DNA of 51,103 nucleotides from the NCBI GenBank assembly GCA_017477435.1, contig JAFUVV010000037.1, positions 1-51,103 on the forward strand, in the 5' to 3' direction. Source of the stretch: Prevotella sp. (GTDB taxonomy: Bacteria > Bacteroidota > Bacteroidia > Bacteroidales > Bacteroidaceae). Under the pieces are notes generated by a model. The model was not told the origin of the DNA and did not search any database. It worked only from the letters and a program-made list of their open reading frames with translations. This document shows, piece after piece, positions 23,371 to 27,144 of this stretch. The position numbers and the translations under genes are program-made. Every line of letters starts with the position of its first letter. Position 1 is the stretch's first letter.

Positions 23371-26300
23371 TCAAGATTTCGCAACTTTCTTCGTCATCTC
23401 TTGATATAACTTGAACAATTCAGCGACACACATACTTTCTGTCATAGTCTTGACATCGAATCCGTAGGCCTGCATAACCGCACGATCGTTAGCTTGATGC
23501 GCTTTACGCAATTCTACAGGCATGGTTAGTTCATCGTAAAGATCTGCGAGCGAAGAGCCAGGATAGAGTGCACGAGCATCAAGGATAGCTTGCGCGGTCT
23601 GCTCTATTTTTTTGACAATAGATGCTGCATCCGATTTGTTTGCGGGCGAGGACGCCCGCGCTCCCAGATTTGGCCAAGGGAAGTTGTTGTAGACGATGTC
23701 CTTCGAATAATTGTAATCACTCTTTAATCGTCCACACACAGCCCGCATCCACGCCATGTGGACATTGGAGTTTAGAACACCAAAATGATATAATGAGGCA
23801 TCTGGTAAGAATTTTACCCTGTCCGTACAAATAATATCTTTATTTATGTATGCCATCGGTATATAACGACGACGTTCTGATGAAACGACAGGAATAACAA
23901 TACTATTCTCTGGATTAAGTTGTTCTCTAAATAGATGTGGTGTCATTGCCAGTTTCCTGCGCCCTTCGTCAGGAGCATTTTCCCTATCTTCTTTGCATGC
24001 TTGAACACGGCTCATCACTAACGGCATTTTACGCAGTTCCGTAGGAGAAGCACCAACCAGCCACAGGCACCAACGTTCTTTGTTGTTTATAAACTCTGAA
24101 GCTCCTAACAATTGCTTGATATATGGTTTTGCTAAGGGTTCCTTTGAAACAAAGTCAGCATAATCCTCAGCCTCGATAATCAAATGGCCTCCATCGGCAG
24201 GACGATTGCCTGTAACCATTTCCGGAACTTCACATAAAGGTTGCCTCCTACTTTCTACATAAATGTCAGGTGCATCAATCAGATACGCGTTGATGTTTTC
24301 TGCTTTTTTGGCTTTCTCTCCCTCATAGATAACTTTCGGCACATCCACGCAGCTGAATCCCACTATAACACAATGTACATGGGCTTTCAAGGTTGCTTCA
24401 CTGTCCCATCGGAAAGTGCGGTGAGCAAAGTCGATGTGAATGCCAAACATTTCCTTCAAGGGCTTCCAGATGGCTGCCACCTGCTCGCCTTGCGTGATGC
24501 TGTTGGTCGAGACAAGGGCCGCACGGGTGTTAGTGCCTGCAATGAGCTTTGCAGCCTTGTAGTACCAACCCGCCACATAGTCAATCTTTCCCGCTGTCTT
24601 AAAGGGCTTTCCTTGTTTGTCGACGAATACTTTCAAGATATCTTCTTTTTGCTCTTTGCTTTGCAACGAATATCCTACAAATGGCGGATTGCCCATAATA
24701 TAGTCGAATGTTTTTCTGGGAGCGCGGGCGTCCTCGCCCGCATCTATGTCTGAGGCAGAGTCCAAAGGTGTCTCACCTTCGCCAGCACTACTCCAACGCC
24801 AATCAGAAGGTGAACTGACGAGACCTGACTTTACAGGATTGTTATCGATATAATCCGCAATTTTATAATAATGCGCATCGTCTCTGATGAAACGATCGTA
24901 ATATTCTGGCATCCAGAAGTCTCCTGTACGGCATAAAACTTTATTTGCTTCATGTGAGGTGTATGACTTCCATGCATGTACTATATCTGTGAGTAGGTAT
25001 CCTTCTATGACTTCAATCAAAACATGCACATGGTTGGGCATCACACACCAATTATGAAGTCTATACGTCTTGCCATCGTTGTACTTTAATGCATCTACTA
25101 CAATTTTTGCAACACGTGGATCGCTCAAGAAGCATTGGCCATGTCCCATGTCTTCATACTGGTCGATGAATTTTTGAAGCTGCAATCTATTTTCTTTTGT
25201 TGTACGGGAATCCGAATTCTCTCTGCTTTCTTCCCATTTAAGTTCACGTTTCCAATGATCGATGATATCATTCGGGACTGAATCGTAGAGTCGGAATGTA
25301 ATCGACTGGAATTCTTTATTCTCTATGTGGGGAAGATAACCTCTACTATGGAAATATGGTTCATCACTTTGTGGGCGAGATGCTGAAGCGTCGCAAGTGG
25401 TTTGCGGGCGAGACGCCCGCGCTCCCAGAAGAGAGTCCCACTCTATGCGGAGGGCATTGCCTTCACATATGTTTGAATATGATTTCAATGGCAGAAAATC
25501 AATATCTTGCTGAATAATCTTTTCTGTCTCGGCAAGCATCTGTGCTTCACTTATCCAAAGGGCTGTAGTGGCGACTGTAACAGCGAAATCGTTAATCTCT
25601 ATGCCATAGAACTGTTGGATGCTTACTTTAACTGGATTGATAAACGCCCCTATCATTTTCTGACCATGATATCGCTCGCGAATTACCTCGTTCTCCAGGC
25701 GGCGAAGCGATAGATAAGTCTCGGTGAGGAAATTGCCTGAGCCGCAGGCTGGATCAAGGAATGTGAGAGAAGCAAGACGGTCCTGATAGGCAACGAGTTT
25801 TTTCTGCCGCTTCTTCTCTATCTTCTCCTCCAATATTTCGTCAAGCTCCTTTCGCAAATCATTTAAGAATAAGGGGTCTATGACTTTGTGTATATTTTCG
25901 ATACTTGTATAATGCATCCCACCACTACGCCGTGTTTCAGGATTAAGTGTGGATTCGAAAACCGCTCCGAATATTGTTGGCGAAATTTCGCTCCAATCGA
26001 AGTCGAGACTGGCATTTTGAAGCAGGACTTGCTTTAAAACTTCTGTAAACTGCGGTATTTCGATTTTTTCTTCAAACAATCCGCCGTTGGTATAAGGAAA
26101 TGCTTTCAAGTCGTCACGCAGGAAATGACTTCGCTTCTCTACAGGAGTATTGAGCGTATCGAAAAGCTGCAATAATGCCATCCGCATCCCTTCGGCATCA
26201 AACTTCATGAGATAGTCGTGGAACTGGTCATGCCCAAAGATACCGGCGTCCTCTGCATAAAGGCAGAAAACTATGCGCACACAAAGTATGTTGAGCCAAC

Positions 26301-26937
26301 GAAATGTAAGAACTTTATCTTGCTCTTTCACCTCATTTGCGGGCGAGACGCCCGCGTTCCCAGAACCTTCGTATTGTTTCAACAAAGCATCGTAGATCCT
26401 TCCGACAATCTCACCAGCTTGCATAGAAACTTGCATCTCTTTCGACAAATGTTCGTTTTTACTATCGACGAGGAACATCAACCGATAATATTCCCTACTG
26501 AGATTTTCAAGCAAGATCTGCTCGGGGTCACAATTTGGACGTTCCATATCGTAAACAAGAAATTCCGAGAAGTTGCAGGTGACAATCCAACGTGGATGTT
26601 CAGACACTGGCAGACTTACCACATAGCGACGTGCCTGCTGAAATGGATTGAGCAATGAGCCATCACTTTGACGAATACCCTTCCTCAAATCCCGGCCCAG
26701 AGACTTCTGCTCGATTAGTACGCGGGTGGAAGGAATTCTTCCGTCGATAAAGTTTGAGGCATCGACCATACGATGGTCTTCAAAATTAATAAAACCATCA
26801 GATGGCGTTTCTACACCATATACATTCGAGAGCAGGTCGAGCCAAAAGGATTGCGACTCGCCTTTTTCGTATCCTCTTCCTTTCCAACGCTCTGCAAACT
26901 TAGCGGCAGCAGCAGCGATTTGCTTTTCTGTTTTCAT
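23371..26937 (-). CDS. MmeI-like (type IIL/IIG) restriction-methyltransferase with nested RAYT
   Basis: 1188 residues in one open frame. N-terminal nuclease motif FIDGRIPSTRVLIEQK (Asp65..Glu76-Gln-Lys78, D-ExK pattern of MmeI), a helical linker, then the gamma-class DNA methyltransferase: FLDPACGSGNFLTETY (motif I, 394-409) and DYIMGNPPFVGY (motif IV, NPPF 750-753), and a C-terminal target-recognition part (about 900-1190). Such enzymes methylate one strand for protection and cut beside the site. Intact relatives are about 920-950 residues. The excess is a segment of about 240 residues (505-741) between motifs I and IV holding a full REP-associated tyrosine transposase domain bordered by REP palindromes. 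Extra REP-derived peptides occur at about 192-200 and 1091-1099. Whether the enzyme still folds and cuts is unknown; the frame is intact throughout, arguing against simple decay. Confidence 0.9.
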   Translation of the reverse strand: MKTEKQIAAAAAKFAERWKGRGYEKGESQSFWLDLLSNVYGVETPSDGFINFEDHRMVDASNFIDGRIPSTRVLIEQKSLGRDLRKGIRQSDGSLLNPFQQARRYVVSLPVSEHPRWIVTCNFSEFLVYDMERPNCDPEQILLENLSREYYRLMFLVDSKNEHLSKEMQVSMQAGEIVGRIYDALLKQYEGSGNAGVSPANEVKEQDKVLTFRWLNILCVRIVFCLYAEDAGIFGHDQFHDYLMKFDAEGMRMALLQLFDTLNTPVEKRSHFLRDDLKAFPYTNGGLFEEKIEIPQFTEVLKQVLLQNASLDFDWSEISPTIFGAVFESTLNPETRRSGGMHYTSIENIHKVIDPLFLNDLRKELDEILEEKIEKKRQKKLVAYQDRLASLTFLDPACGSGNFLTETYLSLRRLENEVIRERYHGQKMIGAFINPVKVSIQQFYGIEINDFAVTVATTALWISEAQMLAETEKIIQQDIDFLPLKSYSNICEGNALRIEWDSLLGARASRPQTTCDASASRPQSDEPYFHSRGYLPHIENKEFQSITFRLYDSVPNDIIDHWKRELKWEESRENSDSRTTKENRLQLQKFIDQYEDMGHGQCFLSDPRVAKIVVDALKYNDGKTYRLHNWCVMPNHVHVLIEVIEGYLLTDIVHAWKSYTSHEANKVLCRTGDFWMPEYYDRFIRDDAHYYKIADYIDNNPVKSGLVSSPSDWRWSSAGEGETPLDSASDIDAGEDARAPRKTFDYIMGNPPFVGYSLQSKEQKEDILKVFVDKQGKPFKTAGKIDYVAGWYYKAAKLIAGTNTRAALVSTNSITQGEQVAAIWKPLKEMFGIHIDFAHRTFRWDSEATLKAHVHCVIVGFSCVDVPKVIYEGEKAKKAENINAYLIDAPDIYVESRRQPLCEVPEMVTGNRPADGGHLIIEAEDYADFVSKEPLAKPYIKQLLGASEFINNKERWCLWLVGASPTELRKMPLVMSRVQACKEDRENAPDEGRRKLAMTPHLFREQLNPENSIVIPVVSSERRRYIPMAYINKDIICTDRVKFLPDASLYHFGVLNSNVHMAWMRAVCGRLKSDYNYSKDIVYNNFPWPNLGARASSPANKSDAASIVKKIEQTAQAILDARALYPGSSLADLYDELTMPVELRKAHQANDRAVMQAYGFDVKTMTESMCVAELFKLYQEMTKKVAKS
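23642..23667 (-). repeat. REP palindrome A
   Basis: GCGGGCG-AGGA-CGCCCGC followed by GCTCCCAG on the plus strand. Within the R-M gene it encodes the peptide GARASSPAN near residue 1091, just inside the C-terminal part. Confidence 0.85.
24714..24741 (+). repeat. REP palindrome B (inverted relative to A, C, D)
   Basis: CTGGGAG, then cGCGGGCG-TCCT-CGCCCGC on the plus strand: the exact reverse complement of the REP A core. It encodes GEDARAPRK at residues about 734-742 and marks the C-terminal border of the RAYT insert. Confidence 0.85.
25368..25395 (-). repeat. Degenerate REP copy C'
   Basis: A decayed REP next to copy C: the coding strand gives DASASRPQS where C gives GARASRPQT, with matching CATCTCGCCC.CAA bases. 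Adjacent double REPs are typical of REP/BIME organisation. Confidence 0.6.
25404..25427 (-). repeat. REP palindrome C
   Basis: GCGGGCG-AGA-CGCCCGC followed by GCTCCCAG on the plus strand. It encodes GARASRPQ at residues 505-512, the N-terminal border of the RAYT insert. Confidence 0.85.
26339..26363 (-). repeat. REP palindrome D
   Basis: GCGGGCG-AGA-CGCCCGC followed by GTTCCCAG on the plus strand. It encodes GNAGVSPAN at about residues 192-200, in the linker between the nuclease and methyltransferase parts. It uses a different reading frame of the REP from copies A and C, yet stays open. Confidence 0.8.
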
Positions 26938-26975: not shown

Positions 26976-27059
26976 CAAAAAACAAAATAAAGAGCCAAAA
27001 TTATTTGAATCCTTTAGAGATAAGTATGATATACAGAACTAAAAAACTTTCCTGGCGGC

Positions 27060-27144
27060 AGTACATGGGCCTTGTACTGGGAGTACATGGGCTTTGTACT
27101 GGGAGTACATGAACGTTGTACTGGGAGTACATGGGCTTTGTACT
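27060..27144. repeat. AGTACA-N7-TGTACT array 2 (4 units, 85 bp)
   Basis: Units start at 27060, 27082, 27104 and 27126, all spaced by GGG. Inner bases are TGGGCCT, TGGGCTT, TGAACGT and TGGGCTT. It lies 85 bp upstream of the R-M promoter box and between two minus-strand genes. It is preceded by CCTGGCGGC, resembling CCTGGCAAC beside array 3. Confidence 0.95.

Follow-up and report, generated by a model that had tools for sequence, protein, structure and literature searches.

REP-associated tyrosine transposases (RAYTs, the TnpAREP proteins of REPtrons; REP, repetitive extragenic palindrome) have been regarded as domesticated transposases that are present in a single copy and inherited vertically (PMC8049555), and a survey that reported their patchy distribution, which fits horizontal transfer, set aside proteins longer than expected, taking them for fusions or annotation errors (PMC6006769). 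Here, we analyze a RAYT that is encoded in frame inside the gene of an MmeI-type restriction-modification (R-M) protein in a Prevotella genome (contig JAFUVV010000037.1 of assembly GCA_017477435.1, positions 1 to 51,103; this whole stretch of 51,103 nucleotides is hereafter the window). Like TnpAREP of Escherichia coli (structure 4er8) and other REPtron RAYTs, it combines an HUH motif with one tyrosine and is flanked by REPs in opposite orientation, but unlike them, it has no start codon of its own and is embedded in a host enzyme. We consider it probable that a REP-RAYT-REP cassette entered a tolerant loop of a Type IIL gene in frame and persists there as a guest domain.

Inteins and homing-endonuclease guests are likewise inserted in frame, recur at the same host positions and are carried by host expression, and RAYTs of the window type share this in-frame recurrent insertion and host-borne expression. 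Unlike inteins, however, the window protein contains no intein domain in Pfam and gives no sign of guest splicing, and the RAYT insertions lie in variable loops. REPs inside genes are known (PMC3733652), even in frame inside tnpAREP genes (PMC6006769), and both these in-frame REPs and the Rickettsia palindromic elements add extra peptide to the host, possibly in loops or linkers (PMC3733652, PMC6006769); in the cases described there, the palindromes come alone, whereas in the window a whole transposase domain is added. No report of RAYTs as recurrent restriction-enzyme domains was found in the literature searched, from which subscription papers and the RAYT classification of Bertels and others were left out, and the words "restriction", "methyl" and "fusion" are all absent from the text of PMC2817692.

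A RAYT domain inside an MmeI-type protein

The host gene is a single unbroken frame of 1188 codons on the reverse strand (23371..26937; all features of the gene below are on this strand, except the REPs, which carry no strand), as had been read from the sequence alone, and encodes a Type IIL/IIG R-M protein. Pfam domains of MmeI follow one another, each above the cut-off, in the order MmeI_N (the nuclease, residues 10-188, 26374..26910), MmeI_hel (the spacer, residues 215-288, 26074..26295), MmeI_Mtase (the gamma-class methyltransferase, in two stretches), MmeI_TRD (the target recognition domain, TRD, residues 888-1091, 23665..24276) and MmeI_C (residues 1108-1185, 23383..23616). PADLOC identifies the protein as a Type IIG restriction enzyme-methyltransferase (REase_MTase_IIG, 1117.6 bits), and the solved MmeI structure 5hr4 matches it with an E value of 3.7e-177. 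The catalytic motifs lie at the very residues named in the sequence-only reading, namely, Glu76-Gln-Lys78 (ExK) in MmeI_N (26704-26712), methyltransferase motif I DPACGSGNF at residues 395-403 (25729..25755) and motif IV NPPF at residues 750-753 (24679..24690); in addition, His342 and Trp844 align to His314 and Trp570, which are named as conserved residues of MmeI (PMC4833311). Thus, all five domains and the catalytic motifs of MmeI are present in the window protein, but its methyltransferase domain is split by 238 residues just before motif IV (residues 481-484 of MmeI; PMC4833311).

Alignment with MmeI, which the same reading had put forward as the way to locate the insert, places it between two nearly adjacent residues: the match ends at chain residue 473 of 5hr4 (query 507) and restarts at 475 (query 744), so that some 236 residues are gained a few residues ahead of motif IV and almost no host sequence is lost. 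The whole REP-RAYT-REP insert comprises residues 505-742, that is, 238 residues or 714 nt, a multiple of 3 (24712..25425). In the congeners, the loop at this site is short or variable (27 loci where the stretch was found). The RAYT domain proper, as delineated by Pfam, NCBIfam and the RAYT alignment, spans residues 526-719 (24781..25362), with Y1_Tnp of Pfam at residues 621-700 and the NCBIfam model REP_Tyr_transpos (NF047646) at residues 603-716 (88.4 bits against a cut-off of 80); the presence of a full RAYT domain with an HUH motif inside the frame is thereby confirmed. The HUH motif PNHVHV occupies residues 634-639 (25021..25038) and the catalytic tyrosine, by alignment, is residue 696 (24850..24852) within YIDNNPV. 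The columns of His636, His638 and Tyr696, lack of equivalence of which had been named as one way to refute the reading, are invariant in an alignment of 45 RAYTs (the window, genome G110 and 43 of the 80 loci kept in the survey described below; G and L numbers are our handles for genomes and loci); because [VI]MPNHVHV was one of the patterns used to detect the survey loci, only the invariance of the tyrosine counts as independent evidence for these. The profile of the 45 RAYTs matches E. coli TnpAREP (4er8) with an E value of 2.2e-12.

The REP on the N-terminal side of the RAYT is translated as GARASRPQ (25401..25430), and the one on the C-terminal side, in the opposite orientation as previously noted, as DAGEDARAP (24714..24744). 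The gene contains two more in-frame REPs, both solo: one (GNAGVSPA, residues 193-200, 26336..26365) lies between the nuclease and the helical spacer and is unmatched in the solved MmeI, and the other (GARASSPAN, residues 1092-1100, 23640..23669) lies at the boundary of the TRD and the C-terminal domain. For both REP sequences tried, none of the six frames contains a stop codon. With up to 3 mismatches allowed, the genome contains 10 REP sites, of which 8 are outside the host gene, compared to 0 for a reversed control; the six stretches with these eight sites have frames of 120-250 amino acids (aa), none of which was judged by eye to be a gene. Inspection of the gene's REPs by eye revealed no canonical GT[AG]G tag at their foot; this tag is typical, yet absent from RAYT classes 2.6 and 3 (PMC6006769). 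A single RAYT match at E ≤ 1e-10 was detected in the window genome (G000), which is 77.87% complete. Upstream of the restriction gene, at 27035-27144, there are 22-bp tandem direct repeats (units such as GGGAGTACATGGGCTTTGTACT).

No ATG, GTG or TTG is in frame anywhere from residue 484 to residue 585, in agreement with the earlier claim that no start precedes the domain, which begins near residue 526; hence, the RAYT seems to be produced solely as a portion of the host protein. A nested gene with its own start was rejected on the same grounds, and an intein was rejected because no splicing (Hint) domain is present among the 9 Pfam families detected at E ≤ 0.1.

The window comes from a metagenome-assembled genome of 2,320,315 bases in 62 contigs, and its incompleteness, the capacity of repeats such as REPs to misjoin contigs and the case of another genome (G237), in which two contigs end inside a RAYT, all raise the question of an assembly chimaera at the junctions. 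Nevertheless, this is extremely unlikely: both junctions preserve the reading frame and fall in the loop that also carries the insertion in another genome of the genus (G041, locus L038), and a search of other genomes for the same kind of junction, which had been suggested, recovered such fusions in G041, in G440, a genome in one contig, and in further assemblies.

Relatives within the genus

Some match to the whole protein was found in 106 of 200 genomes of the genus. Among the matches listed, we counted 44 other homologues with at least 60% identity that cover residues 9 to 490, and only the one from G041 aligns across the insert, which implies that the insert is dispensable for the host enzyme. 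The G041 insertion is in the same loop as that of the window, with a RAYT of a different subfamily and different flanking repeats, and a tree branch with a support of 100 separates this RAYT from the group of the window.

A search with the RAYT as the query, at 1e-10, yielded matches in 16 of 398 genomes of the genus, in 18 places. The closest RAYT type is present in three genomes and in frame with a host in all three: the MmeI-type protein of the window, a CbiG/TP_methylase frame with the RAYT at the C-terminus (G110), and a WYL regulator that is split over two contigs (G237). More distant, stand-alone RAYTs from this search have frames of 218-252 aa (five inspected). The two G237 contigs (C27 and C96; L045 and L059) end inside what is seemingly the same RAYT and share ~99 nt, and a Vsr-like endonuclease frame, identified by eye, is located just upstream of the WYL-RAYT frame.

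Hosts of embedded RAYTs

We scanned the GTDB species genomes with the RAYT alignment, which yielded at least 533 relatives among at least 583 stretches, and kept the best 80 loci. In 26 of the 80, the stop-to-stop frame around the RAYT is at least 400 aa long; Pfam was run on 23 of these long frames (L073, with masked stretches, and L092 and L110, possibly chance frames, were left out), and a host domain was found in all except L128. The 22 hosts are DUF1156 (12), Eco57I-type (2), MmeI-type (1), N6_N4_Mtase (2), WYL (2), SpoU (2) and HAD (1) proteins, so that 17 of them are DNA methyltransferases or restriction proteins. Among the eight proteins given to PADLOC, the DUF1156 host tried was identified as HmaB (1501.7 bits), the N6_N4 host tried as a Type III methyltransferase (581.4 bits), and L182 as a Type I restriction enzyme. 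Compared to an assumed, rather than measured, share of defence genes of 1, 2 or 5%, the 17 of 22 defence hosts, or 12 of 16 separate insertion events by a rough count judged from the tree and the insertion sites rather than computed, give p < 1e-12 in each case.

A survey of the phylum (395 genomes, E ≤ 1e-30) gave 31 matches in 29 genomes, the window included. Eight of the 31 are in frames longer than 400 aa, all with R-M or DUF1156/HmaB-type hosts: the MmeI type of the window, three of the DUF1156 type (G440; G645, by alignment to such proteins; and G755, with a frame and a contig as long as those of L125 and hence probably the same record), three HsdR proteins (G546, with HSDR_N and helicase domains, and G657 and G696, which are pieces alike to it) and one of the Eco57I type (G669). 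In L182 (863-4858, reverse strand), a RAYT of another subgroup is located inside HsdR, between the nuclease and the helicase, and this protein also contains several in-frame repeat peptides of the NGGLENPPPF type. Carriage by plasmids was rejected: the L084 RAYT had no match at E 1e-20 in 72,556 plasmid records, a search from which phages and E. coli genomes were left out.

Insertion sites and RAYT phylogeny

Insertions in the DUF1156 proteins were mapped on an insert-free protein, L215 (995 aa). The 14 proteins with insertions contain 15 RAYTs, of which nine are in loop A (about residues 431-462) and five in loop B (about 168-201); the site of the L121 RAYT is ambiguous on this map. Loop A is an ordinary stretch in five insert-free relatives. 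One DUF1156 frame (L117, 4329-8621, forward strand) contains two different RAYTs, one in each recurrent loop. In this set, host relatedness and RAYT relatedness disagree: L125 and L178 have hosts that are 86-89% identical and RAYTs that are 67% identical, and for L178 and L083, the values are 59-61% and 73%, respectively. A single-clade origin of eight loop-A RAYTs is rejected by the approximately unbiased (AU) test with p = 0.00446, an optimistic value because the group was named after the tree was seen. In a quick tree of 87 RAYTs (the partial L085 was left out), the embedded and stand-alone states require at least 16 changes. Together, these observations suggest that RAYTs arrived repeatedly at the same loops.

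Start codons and selection in embedded RAYTs

We examined the stretch from 30 codons before to 2 codons after the start of the RAYT for potential start codons. An ATG is present in 7 of 31 embedded frames versus 64 of 77 stand-alone frames (Fisher p = 4.5e-9, with relatives not collapsed), and any of ATG, GTG and TTG in 17 of 31 versus 69 of 77 (p = 1.3e-4); this count leaves out L073, L128, L121 and the partial G237, and the 77 stand-alone frames come from 81 loci. The catalytic tyrosine pattern is retained in 31 of 33 embedded rows, the exceptions being one cut-off piece and G669.

The ratio of nonsynonymous to synonymous substitution rates (dN/dS) was estimated by the Nei-Gojobori method for 14 pairs of embedded copies; the RAYT values are 0.08-0.31 in 10 pairs, and the other four are saturated (L079/L076, L125/L178, L125/L083 and L063/L082). 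The WYL pairs gave 0.09-0.16 (three pairs), SpoU 0.09, HsdR 0.13 and 0.21, L117/L112, L178/L083 and L080/L084 0.08 each, and L103/L084 0.31; estimates for L117/L112, L182/L180, L178/L083, L080/L084 and L103/L084 are rough, with RAYT dS above 1, and the last three of these pairs may join separate insertions. For seven pairs that probably share one insertion, the RAYT values are 0.08-0.21 and those of the hosts 0.08-0.22; where given, host values are 0.08-0.29 overall. In the WYL and SpoU pairs, dS is of like size in RAYT and host, which fits joint inheritance; the HsdR pair L182/L181 does not fit it (RAYT dS 0.206 versus 0.070 for the host). Judging by these related copies rather than by the window's own RAYT, the low ratios suggest that the embedded RAYTs in the relatives are not idle.

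These results bear on whether RAYT/REP units simply land anywhere and are seen in frame in loops of dispensable, fast-moving R-M genes because little harm is done there, with a RAYT that has no role and will decay. The single homologue among the 44 listed that aligns across the insert, the solo REPs at other domain boundaries of the same gene, the loss of the tyrosine in G669 and the known occurrence of REPs inside genes (PMC3733652) are all in line with such neutral tolerance, but the RAYT ratios in the seven single-insertion pairs resemble those of the hosts, and the tyrosine pattern is nearly always kept. Furthermore, insertion could equally break a dispensable gene, and with the host parts tried, none of the 56 stand-alone loci gave an out-of-frame or antisense case (best three matches per locus). 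Nor were host pieces found on both sides of the RAYT at any of these 56 loci, again among the best three matches per locus; here, the queries were taken from the hosts of 24 embedded loci and of the window, and two of them (L117_C and L121_N) contain RAYT sequence and fill most rows of the search. On balance, we regard neutral tolerance as rather unlikely, although possible. The suggestion of a benign loop insertion in the sequence-only reading is accordingly borne out for the loop, by the gap between MmeI residues 473 and 475 and the short or variable loops of the congeners; idleness is not what the low dN/dS in relatives suggests.

A converse possibility is that the fusion is functional, that is, the RAYT nickase works in defence, for example, by cleaving phage or plasmid DNA that is single-stranded and forms hairpins, or helps the R-M gene to move. 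The low dN/dS in both halves, the preponderance of defence enzymes (Types I, IIG, III and Hma) among the hosts and the loss of the separate start codon are compatible with this, but the patchy presence with insert-free relatives, the occupation of one loop by unlike RAYTs with unlike repeats and the hosts outside defence speak against it, and we find it unlikely. Of the fusion with a shared function that had been envisaged at the outset, the fusion itself stands, and the shared function finds no support in the listed close homologues, almost all of which do without the insert.

A possible route to guest domains

The best reading of these comparisons is that RAYTs are guest domains that have entered host frames repeatedly, with defence enzymes as the hosts in which they are favoured or most readily tolerated. 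For the insertion of the cassette that we favour in the window, a RAYT would have cut and joined REP-tagged single-stranded DNA and so delivered the cassette into the gene. A REP without stops in six frames is a readable linker in either orientation, and those copies with host and RAYT in one frame would survive. The RAYT would then lose its own start and be made only within the host protein, as indicated by the window, which lacks a start codon, and by the trend in the 31 embedded frames. With the insert in the loop just before motif IV, the nuclease, methyltransferase and TRD could still fold around it, going by the MmeI alignment. The RAYT may remain active as a REP nickase, and the host protein as an enzyme, which we infer from the catalytic residues kept in the window and the low dN/dS in related cases.

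Such insertions have occurred repeatedly, mostly into genes for DNA methyltransferases and restriction enzymes of defence systems. Genes of this kind are long, rich in loops and frequently passed on by horizontal transfer, so that they might be good carriers of a domain that is hard to lose without breaking the host; the defence bias could reflect this mobility and length, or a role.

Several observations weigh against recurrent, start-less guest domains of defence enzymes. A nearby ATG is kept in the 7 of 31 embedded frames mentioned above, G041 among them, and some start in 17, and the embedded RAYT of G669 (L183) has a histidine at the tyrosine position. On the tree, the embedded states are clustered (16 changes versus a mean of 24.5 after shuffling, with 0 of 500 shuffles as low), and the strong branches force just 3 state changes, with 39 of the 84 inner branches being weak. 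Five of the 22 hosts are not DNA enzymes (the two WYL, two SpoU and one HAD proteins), and neither is the cobalamin enzyme that hosts the RAYT of G110. Among 17 DUF1156 matches of the G755 family, in 14 of 86 genomes, a single frame is a known RAYT carrier, in a count that leaves out a 1184-aa frame and the G645 copy, the N-terminus of which is off the contig. Finally, RAYTs have been characterized as single-copy and incapable of self-mobilisation (PMC3116915), and REPtrons apparently do not move as a whole (PMC6006769).

Still, the recurrent in-frame relatives suggest a largely overlooked means by which mobile DNA can persist within functional genes. If RAYTs indeed recur as start-less domains of defence enzymes, in the same loops and without following host relatedness, this would offer them a new niche and also a means of spreading. 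Two-enzyme proteins of this kind let one ask what RAYTs are for, and the fusions point to loops that apparently accommodate an entire additional domain in enzymes of Types I, IIG, III and Hma.

A bolder version, which we consider improbable, is that RAYT/REP cassettes are mobile guest domains that home to the loops of DNA methyltransferase and restriction genes of defence, where the nickase would act on REPs bordering the specificity module and so help to exchange or reshuffle it. Among the 27 homologues, residues 745-1090 are the most variable (median identity to the window of 48-64%, compared to 74-90% on the N-terminal side and 80% on the C-terminal side), and this region has the RAYT and its two REPs at one edge and the solo REP at 23640-23669 at the other. 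Because loops at boundaries would tolerate insertion and recombination alike, this arrangement, a matter of position only, argues weakly for module exchange.

Other palindrome-bordered domains in MmeI-type proteins

A DUF559-like nuclease is encoded in frame inside the MmeI-type proteins of two congeners, G165 and G169 (L041, 1320-4943, reverse strand, and L042, 895-4407, forward strand); Pfam, run on L041 alone, confirmed DUF559 for G165. These inserts are bordered by other palindromic peptides (PSKIRGGQG, PPLSLEGE), and in L041, palindromes are also present at the boundary of the TRD and the C-terminal domain, the place of the solo REP in the window. Like the window RAYT, this nuclease comes with its own palindromes, in frame inside MmeI-type proteins, and is also fused to other genes; it differs in belonging to another nuclease family with other repeats. 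The same DUF559 type is joined onto an agmatine-deiminase-like frame at its end in L216, precedes a HAD-like frame in L217 and is located near the N-terminus of a short MmeI-like frame in L218, all three hosts being identified by eye. At 1e-15, DUF559 matches were found in 82 of 200 genomes of the genus, including further long frames, for example, of 1213 and 1243 aa.

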